From: Pontibacter lucknowensis
GTDB taxonomy: Bacteria > Bacteroidota > Bacteroidia > Cytophagales > Hymenobacteraceae
DNA length: 64,000 bases
Direction: 5' to 3'
NCBI RefSeq assembly: GCF_900156415.1
Contig: NZ_FTNM01000001.1
Span: forward strand, 806,001-870,000
The notes below the pieces were generated by a model, which searched no databases, was not told the origin of the DNA, and worked only from the letters and a program-made list of their open reading frames with translations. Positions 1-18,010 of this stretch are shown one piece after another (positions within the stretch are counted from its first letter, which is position 1; every line of letters starts with the position of its first letter). The position numbers were made by a program, and so were the translations under genes.

Positions 1-1047
1 ATGGCAGCGGCTCACCAGCTCGATGAGCAAGGAAGCCGCAAGCTCAAAGCCCTCTACCGCGTATCAGGCATAAGCCAGCGTTACAGCGTGCTCGAAGACT
101 TCACCCGACAAAACGGAGACTATACCTTCTTCCCCAACACGCATGACCTCGAGCCCTTCCCCACGGTGCAGCAGCGCATGGAGGTATACCGCAAGCACGC
201 CCTCGACCTGTCAGAGCAGGCGGTTCGCAATTGCCTGGCCCAGGTCAGCGATACTACCCTGCAGAGCCTTACCCACCTGATCACCGTGAGCTGCACGGGC
301 ATGTATGCCCCCGGTCTCGATATTGAGCTTGTGGAGCGACTCGAACTGAACTCCTGTGTGCAGCGCACGGCTGTTAATTTCATGGGCTGCTATGCAGCAT
401 TCAATGCTATTAAGCTGGCCGACGCCATCTGCAAGGCTGACCCAAGTGCCAGGGTGATGCTAGTGTGCACCGAGATCTGCACCATCCACTTTCAGAAAAA
501 TCAGGAGCAGGACCATCTGGTGTCGAACGCGCTCTTTGGCGATGGCGCAGCGGCAGTGCTCATGCAGGGGCAGCCTTGTCGGGAGGTAAGCTTGGAGCTG
601 CAGTCTTTCCACTGTGACCTGGCGCCTGCCGGCAAACGCGAAATGGCATGGCACATCGGCGACACAGGTTTTGAGATGACCCTCTCCTCGTATGTTCCGG
701 ATCTGATCAAAAACGGCATCAAACAACTCACAGAACGTTTGCTGCAAGGCCTCCGCACTACCGTTTCGGAGATCAAGCTGTTTGCCATACACCCTGGCGG
801 GCGCCGCATACTCGAGGTGATAGAGCAGGAACTCGGCCTGACACGCGACGACAACCGCTTCGCCTACCGGGTGCTGCACGAGTTCGGCAACATGTCGTCG
901 GCCACGGTACTGTTTGTGCTGAAGGAGCTGATGGCCAGCCTGACCACACAGGAAAAAGATGAACCGGTGCTGAGCTTTGCCTTTGGCCCCGGCCTCACAT
1001 TGGAATCGATGCTATTGAAGGTGCACTATGCTGAAGCAAAGGTCTAA
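1..1047 (+). CDS. Type III polyketide synthase (chalcone/stilbene synthase family), 5' end cut by window
   Basis: Condenses an acyl-CoA starter with malonyl-CoA units to make an alkylpyrone or alkylresorcinol-type product; the exact product cannot be read from sequence. The catalytic triad is visible: Cys130 in FMGCYAAF, His264 in IHPGG and Asn297 in FGNMSS. The His-Asn spacing of 33 matches the family. In plant chalcone synthase the Cys is residue 164, so about 30 N-terminal residues are missing here, and the ATG at position 1 is probably internal with the true start upstream of the window. It overlaps the methyltransferase gene by 20 bases, which suggests an operon and translational coupling. 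Confidence 0.9.
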   Translation: MAAAHQLDEQGSRKLKALYRVSGISQRYSVLEDFTRQNGDYTFFPNTHDLEPFPTVQQRMEVYRKHALDLSEQAVRNCLAQVSDTTLQSLTHLITVSCTGMYAPGLDIELVERLELNSCVQRTAVNFMGCYAAFNAIKLADAICKADPSARVMLVCTEICTIHFQKNQEQDHLVSNALFGDGAAAVLMQGQPCREVSLELQSFHCDLAPAGKREMAWHIGDTGFEMTLSSYVPDLIKNGIKQLTERLLQGLRTTVSEIKLFAIHPGGRRILEVIEQELGLTRDDNRFAYRVLHEFGNMSSATVLFVLKELMASLTTQEKDEPVLSFAFGPGLTLESMLLKVHYAEAKV

Positions 1048-1729
1048 CCAAGCCGAACTGATGGACGACCTCAACTTGTCGGGTGACGAGTTGCGGCGCA
1101 ACCTGGAGGAGCTGGAAGTGATCAACACCTGGCTGGGTGGCTACAAGGTGGTACTCGACGCGCTGGAGCAGCTGCTGGACGGACACAAAGGTCCGCCCCT
1201 TCGATTGGCCGATATCGGCTGCGGCGGTGGCGACACGCTGCGTCACATTGCCAAGTGGGCCCGCCGCAAAAACATTCCGCTGCAGCTCACAGGTATAGAC
1301 GCCAATGACTTTATGGTGCAGTATGCCCGCCAGCGCTGCGGCGGCTTCCCCGAAATAGAACTGGAGCAGCACGATGTATTTTCAGAGCGTTTTCAGCATC
1401 AGCAATACGACATTGTGGTTTGCAGCCTGTTCTGCCATCACTTCACCGATGATCAGCTGGTGCACATGTTCCGGCAGCTGCACCGGCAGGCAGGTATAGC
1501 CGTTATCGTCAACGACCTGCACCGTCACTGGCTGGCCTATCATTCTATTAAATTGCTCACCCGGTTTTTCTCAGATTCCTACCTGGTTAAAAATGACGCA
1601 CCGCTTTCAGTCTGGCGGGCATTCCGGAGAGAGGAATTGCAGCAATTAGTGCAGCAGGCAGGTATAGACAGGTATAGCCTGCGCTGGATGTGGGCTTTTC
1701 GGTGGCAGCTTCTTTTGAAAAAAGCTTAA
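1028..1729 (+). CDS. Class I SAM-dependent methyltransferase, polyketide partner
   Basis: 233 residues. The Rossmann methyltransferase motif I (LADIGCGGGDT) lies near residue 60 after an N-terminal helical region; the motif I acidic residue and glycines bind S-adenosylmethionine. The ATG lies inside the last codons of the type III polyketide synthase. Methyltransferases next to type III synthases usually methylate the polyketide product or take part in flexirubin/alkylresorcinol-type pathways, so the substrate is inferred from position only. Two very small membrane protein genes follow on the same strand, and no oxidoreductase is seen downstream, although these clusters often carry one. Confidence 0.85.
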   Translation: MLKQRSNQAELMDDLNLSGDELRRNLEELEVINTWLGGYKVVLDALEQLLDGHKGPPLRLADIGCGGGDTLRHIAKWARRKNIPLQLTGIDANDFMVQYARQRCGGFPEIELEQHDVFSERFQHQQYDIVVCSLFCHHFTDDQLVHMFRQLHRQAGIAVIVNDLHRHWLAYHSIKLLTRFFSDSYLVKNDAPLSVWRAFRREELQQLVQQAGIDRYSLRWMWAFRWQLLLKKA

Positions 1730-11018: not shown

Positions 11019-11058
11019 ACCAAATAAAAAGCGGCCGGGGTTTGCACCCCGGCCGCTT
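11019..11058 (-). terminator. Terminator of the RND efflux/ACP operon
   Basis: A 12-base perfect stem AAGCGGCCGGGG / CCCCGGCCGCTT around a 6-base loop. On the minus strand it is followed by TTTTTATTTG, so it serves the minus-strand operon ending with the acyl-carrier-like gene. Confidence 0.9.
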
Positions 11059-11083
11059 CTGTTTATACTATTTATAAATTCGA

Positions 11084-11341
11084 TCAGCTGGCTTTCTGCA
11101 TCGCATGTGATGCTACAAAGTCCACAAAGTCGCCCACCGTGTTGATCGGAACTTCATCCGGAATGGTGATCTGGAAATTTTTTTCCAACTCCAGGATGAT
11201 ATCCACTACATCCACCGTATCAAAGCCGAAATCTTTTTCCAGACGGGCATTTACCTGCAAACGGGCAGGTCTAATCTCCTTGGTTTTGCTAATGATGCGG
11301 ATTACCTCTCGCTCAATAGTCTTGTCTGTTGTTGCAATCAT
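11084..11341 (-). CDS. Acyl carrier protein-like protein lacking the phosphopantetheine serine
   Basis: 85 residues, four-helix carrier-protein pattern (RLEKDFGF, helix II, IILELEKNFQITIPDE). Where carrier proteins have Asp-Ser-Leu, this one has Asp41-Thr42-Val43; the Thr codon ACG is read at 11218-11216. Thr is not a normal acceptor for 4'-phosphopantetheine, so it may not carry acyl groups in the usual way. It starts 4 bases after the stop of the RND permease gene and ends just before the operon terminator, so it is co-transcribed with a drug-efflux pump. It may be a structural partner of the pump or a lipid-sensing subunit (inference). Confidence 0.85.
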   Translation of the reverse strand: MIATTDKTIEREVIRIISKTKEIRPARLQVNARLEKDFGFDTVDVVDIILELEKNFQITIPDEVPINTVGDFVDFVASHAMQKAS

Positions 11342-11345
11342 ATAT

Positions 11346-14300
11346 TTATAGGGTGTATTCTCTTACTACTTTTCCATTTACAGGTACCTCTGTTTCGTCC
11401 TGAGGTATAATTTTCACGCCTCCTGCCGGCTTTCTCTCTCCTTTTACCTTTGCTCTCAGTCTTTCATTGAGCAAGTACATCACCGGCACGATCAGGAGTG
11501 TGATGATAGTCGCAAATCCCAGGCCAAAGATGATCGTCCAGGCCAGCGGTCCCCAGAAGGCGGCACTATCGCCCCCCATAAAGAAGTTCGCTTTGAACTC
11601 CGTGAACAGGGTATAGAAGTTCAGGTTTATACCTAACGCCAAGGGTATCAAGCCTAGTATAGTCGCAGTCGCGGTCAGGAGCACCGGGTTCAGACGGGTC
11701 TTGCCTGCTTCCACGATTGCTTCTTTCAGGTCGCGCCCCTCTTCTATCAGCATGTCGGTGAACTCCACGATCAGGATACCGTTTTTCACCACAATACCCG
11801 CCAGAGCCACGATGCCTACACCGGTCATCACCACTGACACGTCCATCCCAAAGATGGAGAAGCCCAGCAACACGCCGATGATGCTAAAGAGCACTTCAGA
11901 CAGGATGATGAACGGCTTCGAGACGGAGTTGAACTGTGTCACCAGCACCAGGAAGATGATCAGGAAGGCCGCCACCAGGGCAATCATCAGGAAGTTGGCT
12001 GTTTCCTCCTGCTCCTCCTGTTGTCCGCCCATGCTGATCTCAAATCCTTCCGGCGTTTCGAAATTCTGCAGCGAACTTCCGATGCTCTGCACCACCTCGT
12101 TGGCATTGTACCCGTCCAGCACGTTCGACTCCAGCGTTACCACGCGTTTGAGGTTTTTGCGCTTGATACCTCCGTATGAAGTACCGTACTCAATGCTCGC
12201 CAGCGACGAAAGCGGGATCTGGCGTACCTGCCCGCTGTTCATGTCGCGGTAAGTGATGCGCATGTCCAGCAAGGCATCAATGTTCTCGCGATAAGGCTCT
12301 GCATAGCGTACTTGTATCGGGTACTCTTCTTCGTCCAGCTTGAACTTAGAGGCCTCGTCGCCGAAAATGGCCGTGCGCAGTTCCATACCGATCTGCCCGG
12401 TGCTGATGCCTTCGCGGTTGGCACGCTCCCGGTCGATGTTGATGATGATCTCCGGTTTACTGTCTTCCAGGTCGCTGCGGAGTTCTTCTATACCACCAAT
12501 CTGCTGCTGATCAATGTAAGCCTGCACTTGCTTTGACAGCGCCACCAGGCCTTCAAAGTCCTCTCCGGCTATCTCGATGCTGATCGGCTTACCTACCGGC
12601 GGGCCGTTCTGCTCTTTGTCGACCGTGATGTTGGTACCCGGTATACCACGCACCGCTTCGCGTATTTCGTTCATATACTCTTGCGTACTGCGCTCGCCGG
12701 TTCGGTATTGATACTCAACAAAGGCTACGGTAACCTTTCCTAAGTGAGATTGTGCGGTCACGCTGCGGTCGTTCTGGTCGCCGGCACCGATGGCCACATT
12801 GGAAATAACCGATTCAACGTCGCTGTTTTCGGCACCAATCACCCGATAGATGCGCTTCTCCACCTCACGTGTAACCGAGTCAGTCACAAGCTGATCCGTA
12901 CCGACCGGCATGCTAATATAGGTATAGACAAAGTTCGGATCTGAATCCGGGAAGAATACTACTTTAGGTGCTCTTACTGCCGTCAGAAAAAAAGAGAAAA
13001 TAAGTAGTACAAACATGCTCAGGAACATCCACACTGGCCGTCTGCCCATCAGCATCCAGCGCAGCAGGCGCTCGTAGCCGCGCATGAAGCGTGGCAGCGT
13101 TGTGTTTTGGAAACCGTGGATCATGCGACGGAAGACGAAGCGGTTAAGCAGCACCAATACCACCACCAGCATGATCAGGTTGGCCGTGCCATACCAGCCG
13201 GCCATGTACCCCACGATGGCCACCAGTGTGGCACCACCTATCAGTAACCAGAAGTTGCGACGTGCACGCGGTGCGATATCAGCCTCCTGCTCGTGCTCCC
13301 TCTTCATGAAAGAAGCCGCAAACACCGGGTTGATGATAAAGGCTACCAGCAATGACGCCATCAGTGTGACGATAAGCGTGATCGGCAGGTAGAACATGAA
13401 CTTACCTACAATGCCCGGCCAGAAAGCCAGTGGCAGGAAGGGCGCCACCGTAGTCAGTGTACCCGCCAGCACGGGCACAAAAACCTCACCGGCCGCCAGT
13501 TTCGCTGACTTGATAATACCCAGATTGGACTGATGCAAAATGCGGTGCGTGTTCTCAATCACCACAATGGCATCGTCCACCACAATACCCAGTGCCAGCA
13601 GGAACGAGAAGAGCACGATCATGTTGAGCGAGAAGCCCAGCACCGGCATCAGCATAAAGGCGATGAACATGGAGATTGGCACCGACAGACCGACGAAAAT
13701 GGCGTTGGTCGTGCCCATGAAGAACATCAGGATCAGGGTCACCAGCACGAAGCCGATGATGATCGTGTTGATCAGGTCGTTCAGGGTGTGGCGCGTCATC
13801 GTAGACTGATCACCTGTGATGGTCACCTTCAGGTCAGCCGGGAGCACGGTAGCCTGCATCTCCTCCACCATTTCGTGGATGTTGTCAGATGCCTGTATAA
13901 GGTTCTCGCCGCTTCGCTTGATTACGTTGAGCGTAATTACGGGCGCATTGTCCAGACGCGCAAAACTCTCCTGCTCTTCAAACCCTTCTTTTACCTCCGC
14001 GATTTCTTTCAGCTGGATATTTGCGCCGGACAGTGACTTTACCACGATATCCCCAATCTTATTCGGGTCGGTGTACTGGCCCACCACACGCACAGAGCGC
14101 TTCATCTCGCCTACCGATATATTGCCACCCGACACGGTAACGTTTTCAGAAGAAATGGCCCGGGCAATGTCAGCGAAGGTTACCTGTGCCACCTGCATTT
14201 TGTAGAGGTCCACGTTTACCTGCACCTCCTTGTCAAGAGCACCCACCATGTCCACGCGGGTGATCTCGGGCTGCGCTTCGATGCGGTCCTGTATATCCTC

Positions 14301-14780
14301 AGCATACTTTTTCAGGCGGTCGAGGCTGTAGTTGCCTGATACATTGAGGTACATGATCGGGAACTCAGAAAAGTTCACCTCCTGCACATTCGGGTCCTGG
14401 TCGAGGTCGGTCGGCAGGTCAGTGCGGGACTTATCTACAGCATCCTTTACCAGCTGCTTTGCCTCCACCACATCCACGTCGGTGTTGAATTCCACCGTGA
14501 TCATCGAGAAGTCCTGAATAGAATTGGACGTCACCTTCTTCACTCCCGAAATAGCCTTCAGCTGCTTTTCGATGGGGCGGGTAACCAGGTTCTCGATATC
14601 GGCCGGCGACGTGCCCGGGTATACCGTGCCCACAAACACGGTCGGAATCACGATGTCAGGGAAATTCTCTTTCTGGAGCGTGATGTACGAGAAGATACCC
14701 CACACCGAGATGATGAGGGTAATGATGTAGATACTCGTCCTATTATCAATGGACCAATTGGTCGGCTTGAAATATTTCAT
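11346..14780 (-). CDS. RND-family efflux permease (AcrB/MdtB-like)
   Basis: 1144 residues, about 100 longer than AcrB. Inner-membrane, proton-driven pump of a tripartite system. Seen: the first helix (IYIITLIISVWGIFSYITL), the porter start NFPDIVIPTVFV, ENLVTRPIEKQLKAISGVKK, the proton-relay pair in GIVVDDAIVVIENTH (TM4), and the second half repeating the fold (VFFPDSDPNFVYTY, GGIKRKNLKRVVTL, MTGVGIVALAGIVVKNGILIVEF). The segment with REHEQEADIAPRARRNFWLL between TM6 and TM7 includes two extra hydrophobic stretches (IGGATLVAIVGYMAGWYG, LIMLVVVLVLL), which explains the extra length. Encoded between its adaptor and the acyl-carrier-like gene. Confidence 0.95.
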   Translation of the reverse strand: MKYFKPTNWSIDNRTSIYIITLIISVWGIFSYITLQKENFPDIVIPTVFVGTVYPGTSPADIENLVTRPIEKQLKAISGVKKVTSNSIQDFSMITVEFNTDVDVVEAKQLVKDAVDKSRTDLPTDLDQDPNVQEVNFSEFPIMYLNVSGNYSLDRLKKYAEDIQDRIEAQPEITRVDMVGALDKEVQVNVDLYKMQVAQVTFADIARAISSENVTVSGGNISVGEMKRSVRVVGQYTDPNKIGDIVVKSLSGANIQLKEIAEVKEGFEEQESFARLDNAPVITLNVIKRSGENLIQASDNIHEMVEEMQATVLPADLKVTITGDQSTMTRHTLNDLINTIIIGFVLVTLILMFFMGTTNAIFVGLSVPISMFIAFMLMPVLGFSLNMIVLFSFLLALGIVVDDAIVVIENTHRILHQSNLGIIKSAKLAAGEVFVPVLAGTLTTVAPFLPLAFWPGIVGKFMFYLPITLIVTLMASLLVAFIINPVFAASFMKREHEQEADIAPRARRNFWLLIGGATLVAIVGYMAGWYGTANLIMLVVVLVLLNRFVFRRMIHGFQNTTLPRFMRGYERLLRWMLMGRRPVWMFLSMFVLLIFSFFLTAVRAPKVVFFPDSDPNFVYTYISMPVGTDQLVTDSVTREVEKRIYRVIGAENSDVESVISNVAIGAGDQNDRSVTAQSHLGKVTVAFVEYQYRTGERSTQEYMNEIREAVRGIPGTNITVDKEQNGPPVGKPISIEIAGEDFEGLVALSKQVQAYIDQQQIGGIEELRSDLEDSKPEIIINIDRERANREGISTGQIGMELRTAIFGDEASKFKLDEEEYPIQVRYAEPYRENIDALLDMRITYRDMNSGQVRQIPLSSLASIEYGTSYGGIKRKNLKRVVTLESNVLDGYNANEVVQSIGSSLQNFETPEGFEISMGGQQEEQEETANFLMIALVAAFLIIFLVLVTQFNSVSKPFIILSEVLFSIIGVLLGFSIFGMDVSVVMTGVGIVALAGIVVKNGILIVEFTDMLIEEGRDLKEAIVEAGKTRLNPVLLTATATILGLIPLALGINLNFYTLFTEFKANFFMGGDSAAFWGPLAWTIIFGLGFATIITLLIVPVMYLLNERLRAKVKGERKPAGGVKIIPQDETEVPVNGKVVREYTL

Positions 14781-14798: not shown

Positions 14799-15947
14799 TT
14801 ATTGCTGCGCAAGACGCTCCTGGTTGAAAACAACCGGCTGCCCTTCGTTCACACTCTGGTATCCTGCTGTAATGATGTAGTCTTGCGCTGTCAGTCCATT
14901 CAGCACTTCTACCTGCCCCTGGTAGTTCACGCCCGTCTCCACCTCTTTGCGGGTGGCCACATAGCGCTCGCCTTGTTTCTGGGCTACGTACACGTACTGT
15001 GATTTCTCGTCGCGCTGTACCAGGTTGACAGGTATAATGATGGCGTCTTCTTTGCGGTAGTCCTGTATGCGCACCACGGCCACCAGGTTCGGACGCAGCT
15101 CTACGTCCACTTTCTTCGGCCGGAGCTCGATCATGAAGGTGCGGCTGCTCGGGTTGATGAAGCTGCTCACCACATCCACCGTGGCGCTGATCTCCTGGTT
15201 CAGGTCCGGGAAGCGTATCAAAGCTTCGTCGCCTTTGCTGATCTTGGTCAGGTAAGCCTCAGATACCTCTGCCACAATCTTAGAGCCATTGGTGTTGACC
15301 ACCCGGATGATGCCCACCCCCGGCGACACGGCCTCCCCGGCATTCGGAATCACGTTGTCTACCACACCGCTCACCGGAGCTTTCACGTTATATTGGTCAC
15401 GCTGCTGCTGCAGCGTAGCCAGACTGCGCTCCAGGGCCTCTTTGTTATTTTTGGCAGTCAGAAACTGCATCTCAGTGCCAATCTTCTGGTCCCAAAGGTT
15501 TTTCTGGCGTTCGTAGGCCACGTTGGCCAGTTCCAGACGGGTACGCACCTCGGCTATGTTCTGCTCGAGCACCTGCGCATCGATGGTGGCCATGGTCTGC
15601 CCCTTCGTCACCTTGTCACCGCGCTTCACCCGAACGCTTGTCAGCACGCCCGGTACTTTGGCACTAACCAGCACGTTCTGATCGAAGTCTACACGGCCCT
15701 GCACCTCCAGGTAGTGACGGAACGTGTCCTGCTGCACCTGCGCTACGGTTACCGGCACAGTCTTTCTCTCAACTGGTCCGCCCTTGCCTTCTGTCTTTAG
15801 CTCTGCTTCCAGCTGTGCGATCTGCTCCTGCAGCTCCGTTTGCTGTTTCTTCAGTTCTGCCAGTTGCGCTTCTTTGTCGCTGCCCTGGTTACAGGCGGCC
15901 AGGCTAAGGAACAGGGCAAGCGATGAAACTCCAAATATCTTTTTCAT
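14799..15947 (-). CDS. RND efflux periplasmic adaptor (membrane fusion protein), lipoprotein
   Basis: 382 residues. Lipoprotein signal with lipobox LSLAAC (Cys19). A short coiled coil (AELKKQQTELQEQIAQLEAE) follows, then the biotinyl-lipoyl half (GVLTSVRVKRGDKVTKGQ), an alpha hairpin (residues about 110-180), the second lipoyl half (APVSGVVDNVIPNAGEAVSPG) and beta-barrel/membrane-proximal domains. It bridges the RND permease and the TolC-like channel. It ends 18 bases before the permease start and follows the TolC-like gene by 33 bases. Confidence 0.93.
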   Translation of the reverse strand: MKKIFGVSSLALFLSLAACNQGSDKEAQLAELKKQQTELQEQIAQLEAELKTEGKGGPVERKTVPVTVAQVQQDTFRHYLEVQGRVDFDQNVLVSAKVPGVLTSVRVKRGDKVTKGQTMATIDAQVLEQNIAEVRTRLELANVAYERQKNLWDQKIGTEMQFLTAKNNKEALERSLATLQQQRDQYNVKAPVSGVVDNVIPNAGEAVSPGVGIIRVVNTNGSKIVAEVSEAYLTKISKGDEALIRFPDLNQEISATVDVVSSFINPSSRTFMIELRPKKVDVELRPNLVAVVRIQDYRKEDAIIIPVNLVQRDEKSQYVYVAQKQGERYVATRKEVETGVNYQGQVEVLNGLTAQDYIITAGYQSVNEGQPVVFNQERLAQQ

Positions 15948-15980: not shown

Positions 15981-17351
15981 TTATTTTATAAGCAGGGTGC
16001 CAGTGGCTTTGTCCAGGTTCACTTTAGCGATCAGGGCATCGTACATGGCGGCGTAGTAATTGGTCTGTGCCTGGCGCAAGTCTGTTTCGGCGGTGACTAC
16101 CTCTAAGTTAGAGCCAACGCCCTCCTGAAACTTGATCTTGGCCACGCGGGCAATCTCCTCAGCCAGTTCCAGGTTCTCGCGCTGCGATGCCAGCACGTCC
16201 AATGAATTGGTCAGGTCGGTAGAGGCTTGTTCCAGCTCCAGGTCTATACCTTGCTCCAGACTCTCAAACCCTAGTTTGGCGTTCTCAAGCGTCAGACGGG
16301 ACTGCTGTACCTGGTAGTGCTTGCGCAGGCCGTCGAAGATCGGCACCTGCAGGCCCAGGCCCACGTAGGCGAAATCGAACCAGTTACGGCTGCGGGTGAT
16401 CTCGCTGAAGTCATTGTTGGCGGCCACGTAACCGTAGCGGCCGTTCAGGTATAGCTTGGGCAGATAGCCAGAACGAATGTTGCGCAGGTTTAGCATGGCG
16501 AGGTCCCGCTGCGTCTCCAGGACAGAGTACTCGATGCGATTGCTATAATTGAAACCGTTTCGATTGGTCTTGGCCATATCAACCTGCACTTCGCTCAGAC
16601 TGTCTGTCAAAATCAGCTGCTCTTTCTGGGGCATTCCCATCTGGAACTTGAGCAGGTCCTCTCCTAAAGTAAGCAAGCGCTCCGTCTTCTGTTTTTCTAC
16701 GTTCAGGTTGTTGTAGGTCACACGAAGGCGGTCCACGTCCAGCTTTTCAGCTACGCCCTGCTCAAACATCACTTGCGTCTGCTTCAGGAGCGTGTCCAGG
16801 CGGTAGAGGTTCTGGTTGAGAAGCTCCATGCGCTCCCGGCTCACCAGCACACTGTAATAGGCCTTGGTCACCTGTTCCACTACATCAATCTCGTTCTGCT
16901 CCGTGGTTTTGCGCGACAGTTCGGTATAAGTCTTGGCGGCTTTCAAACCGATCAGGTATGAGCCATCGAAGAGCAACTGGCTGGCCGTGACGGTAGCATT
17001 GCCAGTATACTGGGGCGTGAACACCACTGGCACGAAGGTGCCTGGCTCCGGCGAATTAGGGTTATCCGGATCCTGAAAAAACTCTGCCGGCAGGAAGCTC
17101 TTTTGCTGTATCACGTTTTTGCCCAAGTCAGCGGCGGCATTGATCTGCGGTAGCCCCATGGCCCGGATCTCTCCTACTTTGGCTTTGTCGATGTCCTGCT
17201 GGTTGCGGGCCATTTTCAGGCTCGCGCGGTTCTGCAGGGCATAATCGATACTCTGTTGCAGACTGAAAGCCTGCGGCGATGCCTGCGCCAGCACCTTGAC
17301 CGGGCTTAGCAAGACGAATAGTGCCAGTAACAGGCTAATGTTTTTTTTCAT
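15981..17351 (-). CDS. TolC-family outer-membrane efflux channel
   Basis: 456 residues with a Sec signal (MKKNISLLLALFVLLSPVKVLAQ). Two structural repeats typical of outer-membrane factor proteins: long helices rich in Ala, Gln, Leu and Asn (SLQQSIDYALQNRASLKMA near the start; LELAEEIARVAKIKFQEGVG near the end) and strand segments such as YLPKLYLNGRYGYVAANND. The repeat ends in VTAETDLRQAQTNYYAAMYD, the classic C-terminal OEP motif. It forms the exit duct of the pump encoded downstream, and lies 20 bases after the TetR gene. Confidence 0.93.
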   Translation of the reverse strand: MKKNISLLLALFVLLSPVKVLAQASPQAFSLQQSIDYALQNRASLKMARNQQDIDKAKVGEIRAMGLPQINAAADLGKNVIQQKSFLPAEFFQDPDNPNSPEPGTFVPVVFTPQYTGNATVTASQLLFDGSYLIGLKAAKTYTELSRKTTEQNEIDVVEQVTKAYYSVLVSRERMELLNQNLYRLDTLLKQTQVMFEQGVAEKLDVDRLRVTYNNLNVEKQKTERLLTLGEDLLKFQMGMPQKEQLILTDSLSEVQVDMAKTNRNGFNYSNRIEYSVLETQRDLAMLNLRNIRSGYLPKLYLNGRYGYVAANNDFSEITRSRNWFDFAYVGLGLQVPIFDGLRKHYQVQQSRLTLENAKLGFESLEQGIDLELEQASTDLTNSLDVLASQRENLELAEEIARVAKIKFQEGVGSNLEVVTAETDLRQAQTNYYAAMYDALIAKVNLDKATGTLLIK

Positions 17352-17371: not shown

Positions 17372-18010
17372 TTATTCTTCTTCTGTGATTTGCTTGTAGT
17401 CATTGATCATCTTGTGCCCCTTGAGCGTGGCGATACCGAGCATGAAGTACTCGAGGCTGGCCGTTTGCACATGCAGCAGCTCAAATTGGAAGCGGGGGAA
17501 AAGGGTTTCGTCAAAAGGCACCTCGATCTGGGCGAGTCGCAGGCGGGCGATTACCTCCACGTCCAGGTCCTGACGGAACAAGCCTTCAGAAATGCCGCGC
17601 CTGAGGTTATCTTTAATCCGGTGAAGGAAGTCATGGTTCTTATACTCCTGCCACTTTTGCCAGGCGTTGGCGTGGTACTTCTGCAGGTCGAAGAAGATGC
17701 CGGGGTGAATGCTGGCGAAGACTTGACGGGTGGTCTTCATGATCGAAAAAAGTTCTTCGATGGCATTGGGCGCCTCCTGCCTGCATCGCTCACAGTCCGC
17801 ATCCACCGAACTCAGGTATGAGTTGATAGCCCAGTACACAATCTCGTCTTTGTTGCTGAACCACTTGTAAATGGTTTTTTTGGACATAGAGAGGTGCTGC
17901 GCAATGTCATCCATAGAGGACCCCTTGATGCCGCGGCGACAGAAAAGCTTAAATGCCTCTGTTGCAATCTTATCTTTAACCGATAGCTGTACTGTCGTTT
18001 CCATTTTCAT
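17372..18010 (-). CDS. TetR-family repressor of the efflux operon
   Basis: 212 residues (210 if the second ATG at 18004 is used). The N-terminal helix-turn-helix is clear: IATEAFKLFCRRGIKGSSMD, then DIAQHLSMSKKTIYKWFSNKDEI. The C-terminal ligand domain carries a Cys pair (CERCRQE) near residue 75, which may matter for sensing. First gene of the five-gene minus-strand operon TetR-TolC-adaptor-RND-ACP. An inverted repeat overlapping its promoter is a likely self-operator, giving ligand-dependent derepression of the whole pump (inference). Confidence 0.92.
   Translation of the reverse strand: MKMETTVQLSVKDKIATEAFKLFCRRGIKGSSMDDIAQHLSMSKKTIYKWFSNKDEIVYWAINSYLSSVDADCERCRQEAPNAIEELFSIMKTTRQVFASIHPGIFFDLQKYHANAWQKWQEYKNHDFLHRIKDNLRRGISEGLFRQDLDVEVIARLRLAQIEVPFDETLFPRFQFELLHVQTASLEYFMLGIATLKGHKMINDYKQITEEE

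Follow-up and report, generated by a model that had tools for sequence, protein, structure and literature searches.

That an acyl carrier protein (ACP) can bind a pump of the RND superfamily is already known from the mycobacterial pair AcpM and MmpL5. Cryo-EM of MmpL5 with AcpM places the contacts of the carrier at D40, E46, E52, D53 and D61 (PMC11633376, PMC12346298), the Asp of the DSL motif being among these acidic contacts (PMC11633376, PMC12501195, PMC12346298), and the surface that receives AcpM is the basic cytoplasmic helix Ialpha2 and the C-terminus of MmpL5 (PMC12501195). Within MmpS5L5 the phosphopantetheine arm of holo-AcpM is reported to bridge protomers (PMC12501195), and AcpM on MmpL5 was first taken as a fortuitous co-purified protein (PMC11633376). 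The association was found by cryo-EM in 2024-2025. A dedicated ACP paralogue encoded with a pump and lacking the prosthetic Ser was not found described in the open-licence PubMed Central papers searched, and nothing on point was found there on ACPs without Ser or on the pairing of such a carrier with a pump.

The carrier gene, its operon and its fold

The window, that is the whole stretch of 64,000 nucleotides of Pontibacter lucknowensis that was analysed, contains an operon lying entirely on the minus strand in the order TetR, TolC, adaptor, RND and carrier, with the carrier last. Its features are as follows.

11084..11341, minus strand: carrier-like protein without the prosthetic Ser, 85 aa, D41-T42-V43 (open reading frame and translation)
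11216..11218, minus strand: codon 42 (Thr), the phosphopantetheine Ser position of ordinary ACPs (sequence)
11027..11060, minus strand: terminator-like stem-loop of 15 pairs, starting 23 bases past the carrier stop
11346..14780, minus strand: RND permease of AcrB type, here RND1, 1144 aa (PF00873, E 2.7e-200)
14799..15947, minus strand: RND periplasmic adaptor, or membrane fusion protein (HlyD_D23; TIGR01730 above cut-off)
15981..17351, minus strand: TolC-type outer membrane efflux protein, TolC/OEP (PF02321)
17372..18010, minus strand: TetR-family regulator, the first gene of the operon (PF00440)

The carrier reading frame runs from an ATG at 11341 to the end of its stop at 11084, and exactly 4 bases (11342-11345) lie between the RND1 stop and that ATG. 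The stem-loop at 11060-11027 on the minus strand is probably the end of the operon; a scan of the region found 10 terminator-like sites where 7.3 were expected, and so only the length of the 15-pair stem is notable. An earlier note on this DNA had read an Asp-Thr-Val at the DSL site of an ACP-like protein, and had placed its gene last in a TetR-TolC-adaptor-RND operon, 4 bases after the permease. The open reading frames and Pfam confirm that placement, Thr at residue 42 bears out the motif, and the ACP-like identity is borne out by the PF00550 match and AlphaFold2/Foldseek results given below.

Two other features of the window may be recorded. A type III polyketide synthase (chalcone/stilbene-synthase-like) followed by a methyltransferase is found by Pfam at window positions 1-1729, 9 kb from the carrier, and no sign of a link between these genes and the carrier was seen. 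The RND1 permease (11346-14780) has an additional hydrophobic stretch between TM6 and TM7, at about residues 531-547, and its orthologues elsewhere in the order are of a length similar to that of the permease with this extra stretch.

The ACP fold of the carrier is shown by profile comparison together with predicted structure. The protein scores 26.5 bits against PF00550, above the cut-off of 20.8, and 54.7 bits against the NCBIfam ACP model TIGR00517, under its cut-off of 70.45, and the AlphaFold2 model has four helices at a pLDDT of 83.7. Among the 50 Foldseek matches listed for that model all are ACP entries or ACP-containing complexes by title, and they include AcpM chains of mycobacterial MmpS5L5 (9rfu_H) and of EmbC complexes. 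Where ACPs read Asp-Ser-Leu the carrier has Asp41-Thr42-Val43. The prosthetic Ser expected of a member of the ACP family is thus replaced by Thr in the carrier and is present in just 1 of 158 relatives, and the hydroxyl that would have to be conserved in a Thr-modified carrier is lost in 53 of the 158, which have neither Thr nor Ser; the residues at this site support a carrier fold that would have no means of the usual acylation.

Searching the genome of P. lucknowensis with the carrier protein returns three ACP-like genes, the carrier included. The second is another carrier, of 80 aa and with Asp-Ile-Val at the site, lying 84 bases behind a different RND permease (RND2) in an operon of MarR-like, TolC, adaptor and RND genes (RND identified by Pfam, the rest from the sequence itself); over the compared part RND1 and RND2 share about 27% identity. 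The third, also read from sequence, is an ordinary DSL AcpP beside fabF, which scores E 7.9e-8 in this search.

Carriers in Hymenobacteraceae and ACP-like genes beyond it

A carrier match at E <=3.4e-18, far beyond the 7.9e-8 of the AcpP just mentioned, is present in 200 of 200 Hymenobacteraceae genomes, part of these matches having been read. The set used for comparison was reduced from 191 matches to 180 by collapse of identical DNA, and then to 158 by removal of 22 DSL proteins classed as ordinary ACPs; all 22 read DSL, but DSL was the criterion by which they were separated. The 158 come from loci chosen by carrier score or by hand among the matches, and many are near relatives. A second and overlapping set consists of genus-assigned loci, for which 80 of 184 relatives were kept, from the Hymenobacteraceae genera Pontibacter, Rufibacter, Sabulibacter, Botryobacter, Adhaeribacter and Hymenobacter.

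At the site of the Ser the 158 distinct relatives have Thr in 104, Ile in 27, Val in 7, Leu in 7, Pro in 4, Asn in 3, Gln in 2, Glu in 2, Met in 1 and Ser in 1; in the overlapping genus-assigned set, of which 79 of 80 loci are readable, there are 67 Thr, 6 Val, 3 Pro, 2 Ile and 1 Met, with no Ser. Even in proteins 94-98% identical to the query carrier (L007-L013) the site is Val or Met. Since the position varies across nine other residues, neither Thr nor a nucleophile is needed at position 42, and as read from the alignment it is the loss of Ser, and not the Thr, that is conserved in Hymenobacteraceae carriers. The residues about it behave quite differently, the entropy being 1.73 bits at site 42 as against 0.20 at D41, 0.14 at V46 and 0 at D44, I49, E53 and D62. 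Invariant or nearly so among the 158 are D41, D44, V46, I49, E53, I60, P61, D62 and D71, and apart from site 42 the docking face of helix II is strongly conserved, with its acidic residues retained at Asp41 (153/158), Asp47 (148/158), Glu53 (158/158) and Asp62 (158/158); these same acidic residues are common to ordinary AcpP. Purifying selection on the carrier is shown by a dN/dS with a median of 0.07 and a maximum of 0.29 over 467 pairs.

In 144 of the 158 (107 RND1, 37 RND2) the carrier follows a same-strand RND permease at a distance of at most 400 bases, the gap being at most 150 bases in 118 of these and at most 20 bases in 47, although many of the 144 loci represent one inherited arrangement. 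One further upstream RND sequence (L115/L256) is a relic, was not classed as RND1 or RND2 and was left out of the 144. In four more loci (L072, L073, L182, L183) the order is RND2, TetR, carrier, with one extra reading frame between RND2 and TetR in L073, and in the overlapping genus-assigned set RND is upstream in 75 of 79 readable loci. The carrier is thus placed behind two different RND permeases. A chance neighbourhood of carrier and RND was considered and rejected, with an RND permease preceding 144 of 158 distinct relatives. Parsimony on the carriers gives 2 changes of RND1/RND2 linkage; a single clade of RND2-linked carriers is, however, compatible with the AU test (p = 0.364), and for this reason independent recruitment to RND2 within Hymenobacteraceae is not claimed as shown.

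The tie of a non-acylable carrier fold to RND operons that the earlier note saw in one genome therefore holds across Hymenobacteraceae, and the search it proposed for this variant beside RND genes elsewhere finds the RND gene directly before the carrier gene in those 144 of 158. The conservation of Thr42 that it wished to see checked did not appear (Thr in 104 of 158), and a special role for that Thr is unsupported, with Ile, Val, Leu, Pro, Asn, Gln, Glu and Met found in its stead. It had held that the idea would fall if Thr42 were not conserved, or if relatives with Ser lacked a link to RND genes: the Thr is indeed not conserved, and within the 158 no Ser relative without such a link occurs, the sole Ser carrier, L073 (FDSVDLV), adjoining the TetR gene in an RND2 locus. 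For its suggestion of a lipid sensor no evidence was found.

Carriers also occur away from pumps. In 9 of the 158 no RND gene is present in the stretch read, and a tenth has the RND relic only. Two of the nine (L066, L068) precede a MarR-like and TolC operon, which in one case extends to an adaptor and RND2 (L196); two more, L022 of Pontibacter harenae and L121 of Rufibacter immobilis, are at the former RND1 locus; L084 and L174 stand alone. In the other three (L077, L082, L178) a calcineurin-like phosphoesterase, read from sequence, is beside the carrier, paired with an uncharacterised exported protein, and the same pair is seen in two Hymenobacteraceae genera. The carrier is intact while the adjacent RND1 operon is gone in P. 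harenae, R. immobilis, R. psychrotolerans and Rufibacter sp. XAAS-G3-1 (the loci of these three Rufibacter and P. harenae being L256 4034-4312, L195, L257 and L186/L197), with a degenerate RND1 fragment remaining in XAAS-G3-1 (L256); these four account for the exceptions to upstream RND in the genus-assigned set. The missing operon would lie between the carrier and either pheS (read from sequence) or TetR. Whole-genome search did not find RND1 in R. immobilis or in P. harenae, whose assembly is 87% complete. P. harenae keeps a TetR gene (59% identical to that of the window) and the carrier without TolC, adaptor and RND, and its RND2 has no carrier alongside; in R. immobilis the carrier is kept but has no neighbouring regulator gene. 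Nothing else speaks as strongly against a role with the adjacent pump alone as these losses of the pump with the carrier kept.

Outside the family, a search of the order with the carrier profile (A2) covered 118 genomes, 109 of them from other families, and among the 21 loci read there (L093-L113) none held an A2-type carrier, all being DSL; the same search of the class, where 292 of 295 genomes lay outside Hymenobacteraceae, added 27 new loci that were read (L314-L340), again with no A2-type carrier and all with ordinary DSL ACPs. RND1 orthologues are found in 54 of 59 genomes of the order, four Hymenobacteraceae members included, and up to 1.5 kb downstream of 26 complete orthologues from other families no A2-type carrier is present. 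One weak match upstream of an RND1 orthologue led to a separate group (f9), and among 20 wider RND1 regions an ACP-like gene lies inside the operon in 2, three regions (L350, L354, L357) ending early upstream at the contig end.

In 5 of 5 genomes of the f9 genus the TolC and adaptor genes are separated by an ACP-like gene (78-87 aa), and RND1 comes next; the site is Lys in three and Ser (in TSP) in two. The f5 genus has its ACP-like gene, of 77-83 aa, before TetR and TolC; this was seen in 3 genomes, the site residue is Tyr or Phe, the protein has no Pfam match, and RND1 follows in both genomes read that far. Ser is thus missing in 6 of 8 operon-linked ACP-like proteins from two other families. 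The AcpP profile is a better match for both groups (E 2e-11 for f9 and 2e-9 for f5) than the Hymenobacteraceae carriers are; the profiles are shallow, and this closer match suggests that these genes may have arisen separately from the carriers of Hymenobacteraceae. Two further f9-group members in other genera sit elsewhere, one beside an ABC exporter. In L376 (3-1746, minus strand) a Ser-less ACP-like gene immediately precedes the gene for an ABC exporter (PF00664/PF00005). Other families have further ACP-like genes, some with Ser, next to genes for TolC or TetR: those of L400, L402 and L404 have an SSL motif, with Ser at the site, and in L402 (437-1524) and L404 (873-1749), of family f4, a TetR gene is followed directly by the SSL gene. 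No RND is within the short stretch read of L402 and L404, and an efflux operon could adjoin beyond it.

What the carrier may do

The reading placed first, which we hold tentatively and short of calling probable, is that in Hymenobacteraceae the ACP of fatty-acid synthesis was duplicated and one copy, having lost the Ser, turned into an arm-free protein dedicated to assisting RND efflux pumps; it stands ahead of a mimic or decoy of AcpP, which itself stands ahead of a partner of the operon regulator. The retained acidic face (D41, D47, E53, D62) would dock on the basic segment of the permease before TM7 and/or on its C-terminus, by analogy the site where holo-AcpM docks on mycobacterial MmpL5, and the docked carrier might stabilise or tune the pump, or keep ordinary acyl-AcpP off it. 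Having no arm it would not deliver lipid in the usual way, and so its role would be structural or regulatory; a pump subunit is plausible. The adjacency to RND, the two carriers behind two different pumps in the genome of P. lucknowensis, the conserved docking face with a variable site 42, the purifying selection, the precedent of AcpM on MmpL5, the basic charge of the permease before TM7 and the ACP-like genes in the orthologous operon of two other families support an accessory of the pump. The same reading is weakened by the four genomes that keep the carrier after pump loss, by the docking residues being also those of ordinary ACPs, by the two operon-linked proteins of other families that keep Ser in TSP, by the bridging role reported for the arm in MmpS5L5, which an arm-less protein could not take over, and by the lack of an RND1 mark specific to the pairing and of a carrier beside RND2 of P. 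harenae. On the pump side the RND1 segment before TM7 has a net charge of +7, and its median is +4 in carrier-linked and carrier-less orthologues alike. Comparison of 105 family RND1 proteins, nearly all partial and with the N-terminal part left out, with 26 from other families showed that residues specific to the family do not cluster in the cytoplasmic loops covered, and carrier-specific marks in the permease were accordingly set aside, nothing being clustered and the same basic charge occurring without a carrier. A wider proposal, possible though rather doubtful, is that ACP duplicates were recruited more than once (in the RND1/RND2 operons of Hymenobacteraceae and in two other families) as arm-free accessories of tripartite pumps, with the docking face kept and the chemistry dropped.

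An unlikely but serious alternative is that the carrier, arm-less, binds the partners of AcpP (the enzymes of fatty-acid, phospholipid and lipid A synthesis, or AcpS) and inhibits or tunes them, its co-expression with the operon adjusting the envelope upon efflux induction. The docking face shared with AcpP would suit such a decoy, as would retention of the carrier in four genomes after loss of the adjacent pump and the copies with no RND neighbour (L077, L082, L178, L084, L174), but it leaves unexplained why copies lie behind RND1 as well as RND2 and why other families have such genes in their RND1 operons. Furthermore residues 1-36 are net basic in the carrier (+4) as against -5 in AcpP, and so any mimicry of AcpP would not extend over the whole surface.

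It is quite unlikely that the carrier acts on the TetR (or MarR-like) repressor of the operon, as a ligand or co-regulator that reports the state of lipid or of the pump. TetR and carrier do stay together in P. harenae without the TolC, adaptor and RND genes, the RND2-TetR-carrier order recurs in L072, L073, L182 and L183, and ACP-like genes are found just before TetR in one other family and, with the SSL motif, adjoining TetR in another. However, in the group-2 operons read (L194, L201) the regulator gene, going by sequence, is MarR-like and not TetR, the R. immobilis carrier has no regulator alongside, and in the window, L194 and L199-L202 the carrier is the gene most distant from the regulator.

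ACP genes beside RND-superfamily exporters occur in biosynthetic clusters, which is what would recommend the very improbable reading that the gene is left over from a cluster for lipid or polyketide export and is now of little use; no example of such neighbours was found in the open-licence papers searched, and this reading meets with purifying selection on the carrier, a strong match in 200 of 200 Hymenobacteraceae genomes and no ketosynthase-like gene noticed by eye in the operons read. That the protein is a working carrier bearing phosphopantetheine or another group on Thr42 is scarcely credible: Thr is the commonest residue at the site (104/158), but its place is taken elsewhere by Val, Met, Pro, Ile, Leu, Asn, Gln or Glu, and within the near-identical L007-L013 by Val and Met, and Thr as an attachment site is rejected on account of this free replacement.

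Comparison with known systems

Small proteins serving an RND pump are known in AcrZ and YajC. These are membrane proteins, whereas the carrier is a predicted soluble ACP fold. The ACP fold as a structural subunit is known from EmbC-AcpM and mitochondrial complex I, both among the Foldseek matches listed, and the ACPs of both are working carriers elsewhere; EmbB-AcpM is reportedly the subject of a paper. AcpP has the same fold and the same docking face as the carrier and is probably its ancestor by duplication (profile-profile E 6e-18). It differs in that the carrier lacks the Ser and is away from fatty-acid synthesis genes in the operon loci read, and in net charge, carriers having a median of -2 (range -8 to 6) and five AcpPs -8 to -14.

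The whole suggests that the ACP shape has been reused to serve or tune an efflux pump in Pontibacter and its relatives. If this is true, a family that encodes a dedicated Ser-less ACP-like protein with its pumps would part docking from lipid chemistry, the question of what an ACP does on a pump would become directly testable in harmless soil and water bacteria, and a much-studied class of drug efflux pump would gain a new kind of component.

In AcpM and MmpL5 the likeness lies in an ACP fold with acidic residues directed toward the cytoplasmic face of an RND-superfamily pump (PMC11633376, PMC12501195), to which the carrier would dock in a similar manner. When matched by offset from the DSL motif, D40, V45, E46, E52 and D61 of AcpM correspond to D41, V46, D47, E53 and D62 of the carrier. 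The carrier is encoded with a tripartite AcrB-type pump and its binding there is putative, unlike that of AcpM, which has been seen on MmpL5. AcpM is not known to be encoded with MmpL5. It serves mycolate synthesis as a working ACP and is present as the holo form in MmpS5L5, whereas the carrier is a dedicated Ser-less paralogue; since in MmpS5L5 the arm is reported to sit between the protomers, an arm-free carrier must in that respect differ from AcpM in its mode of action.
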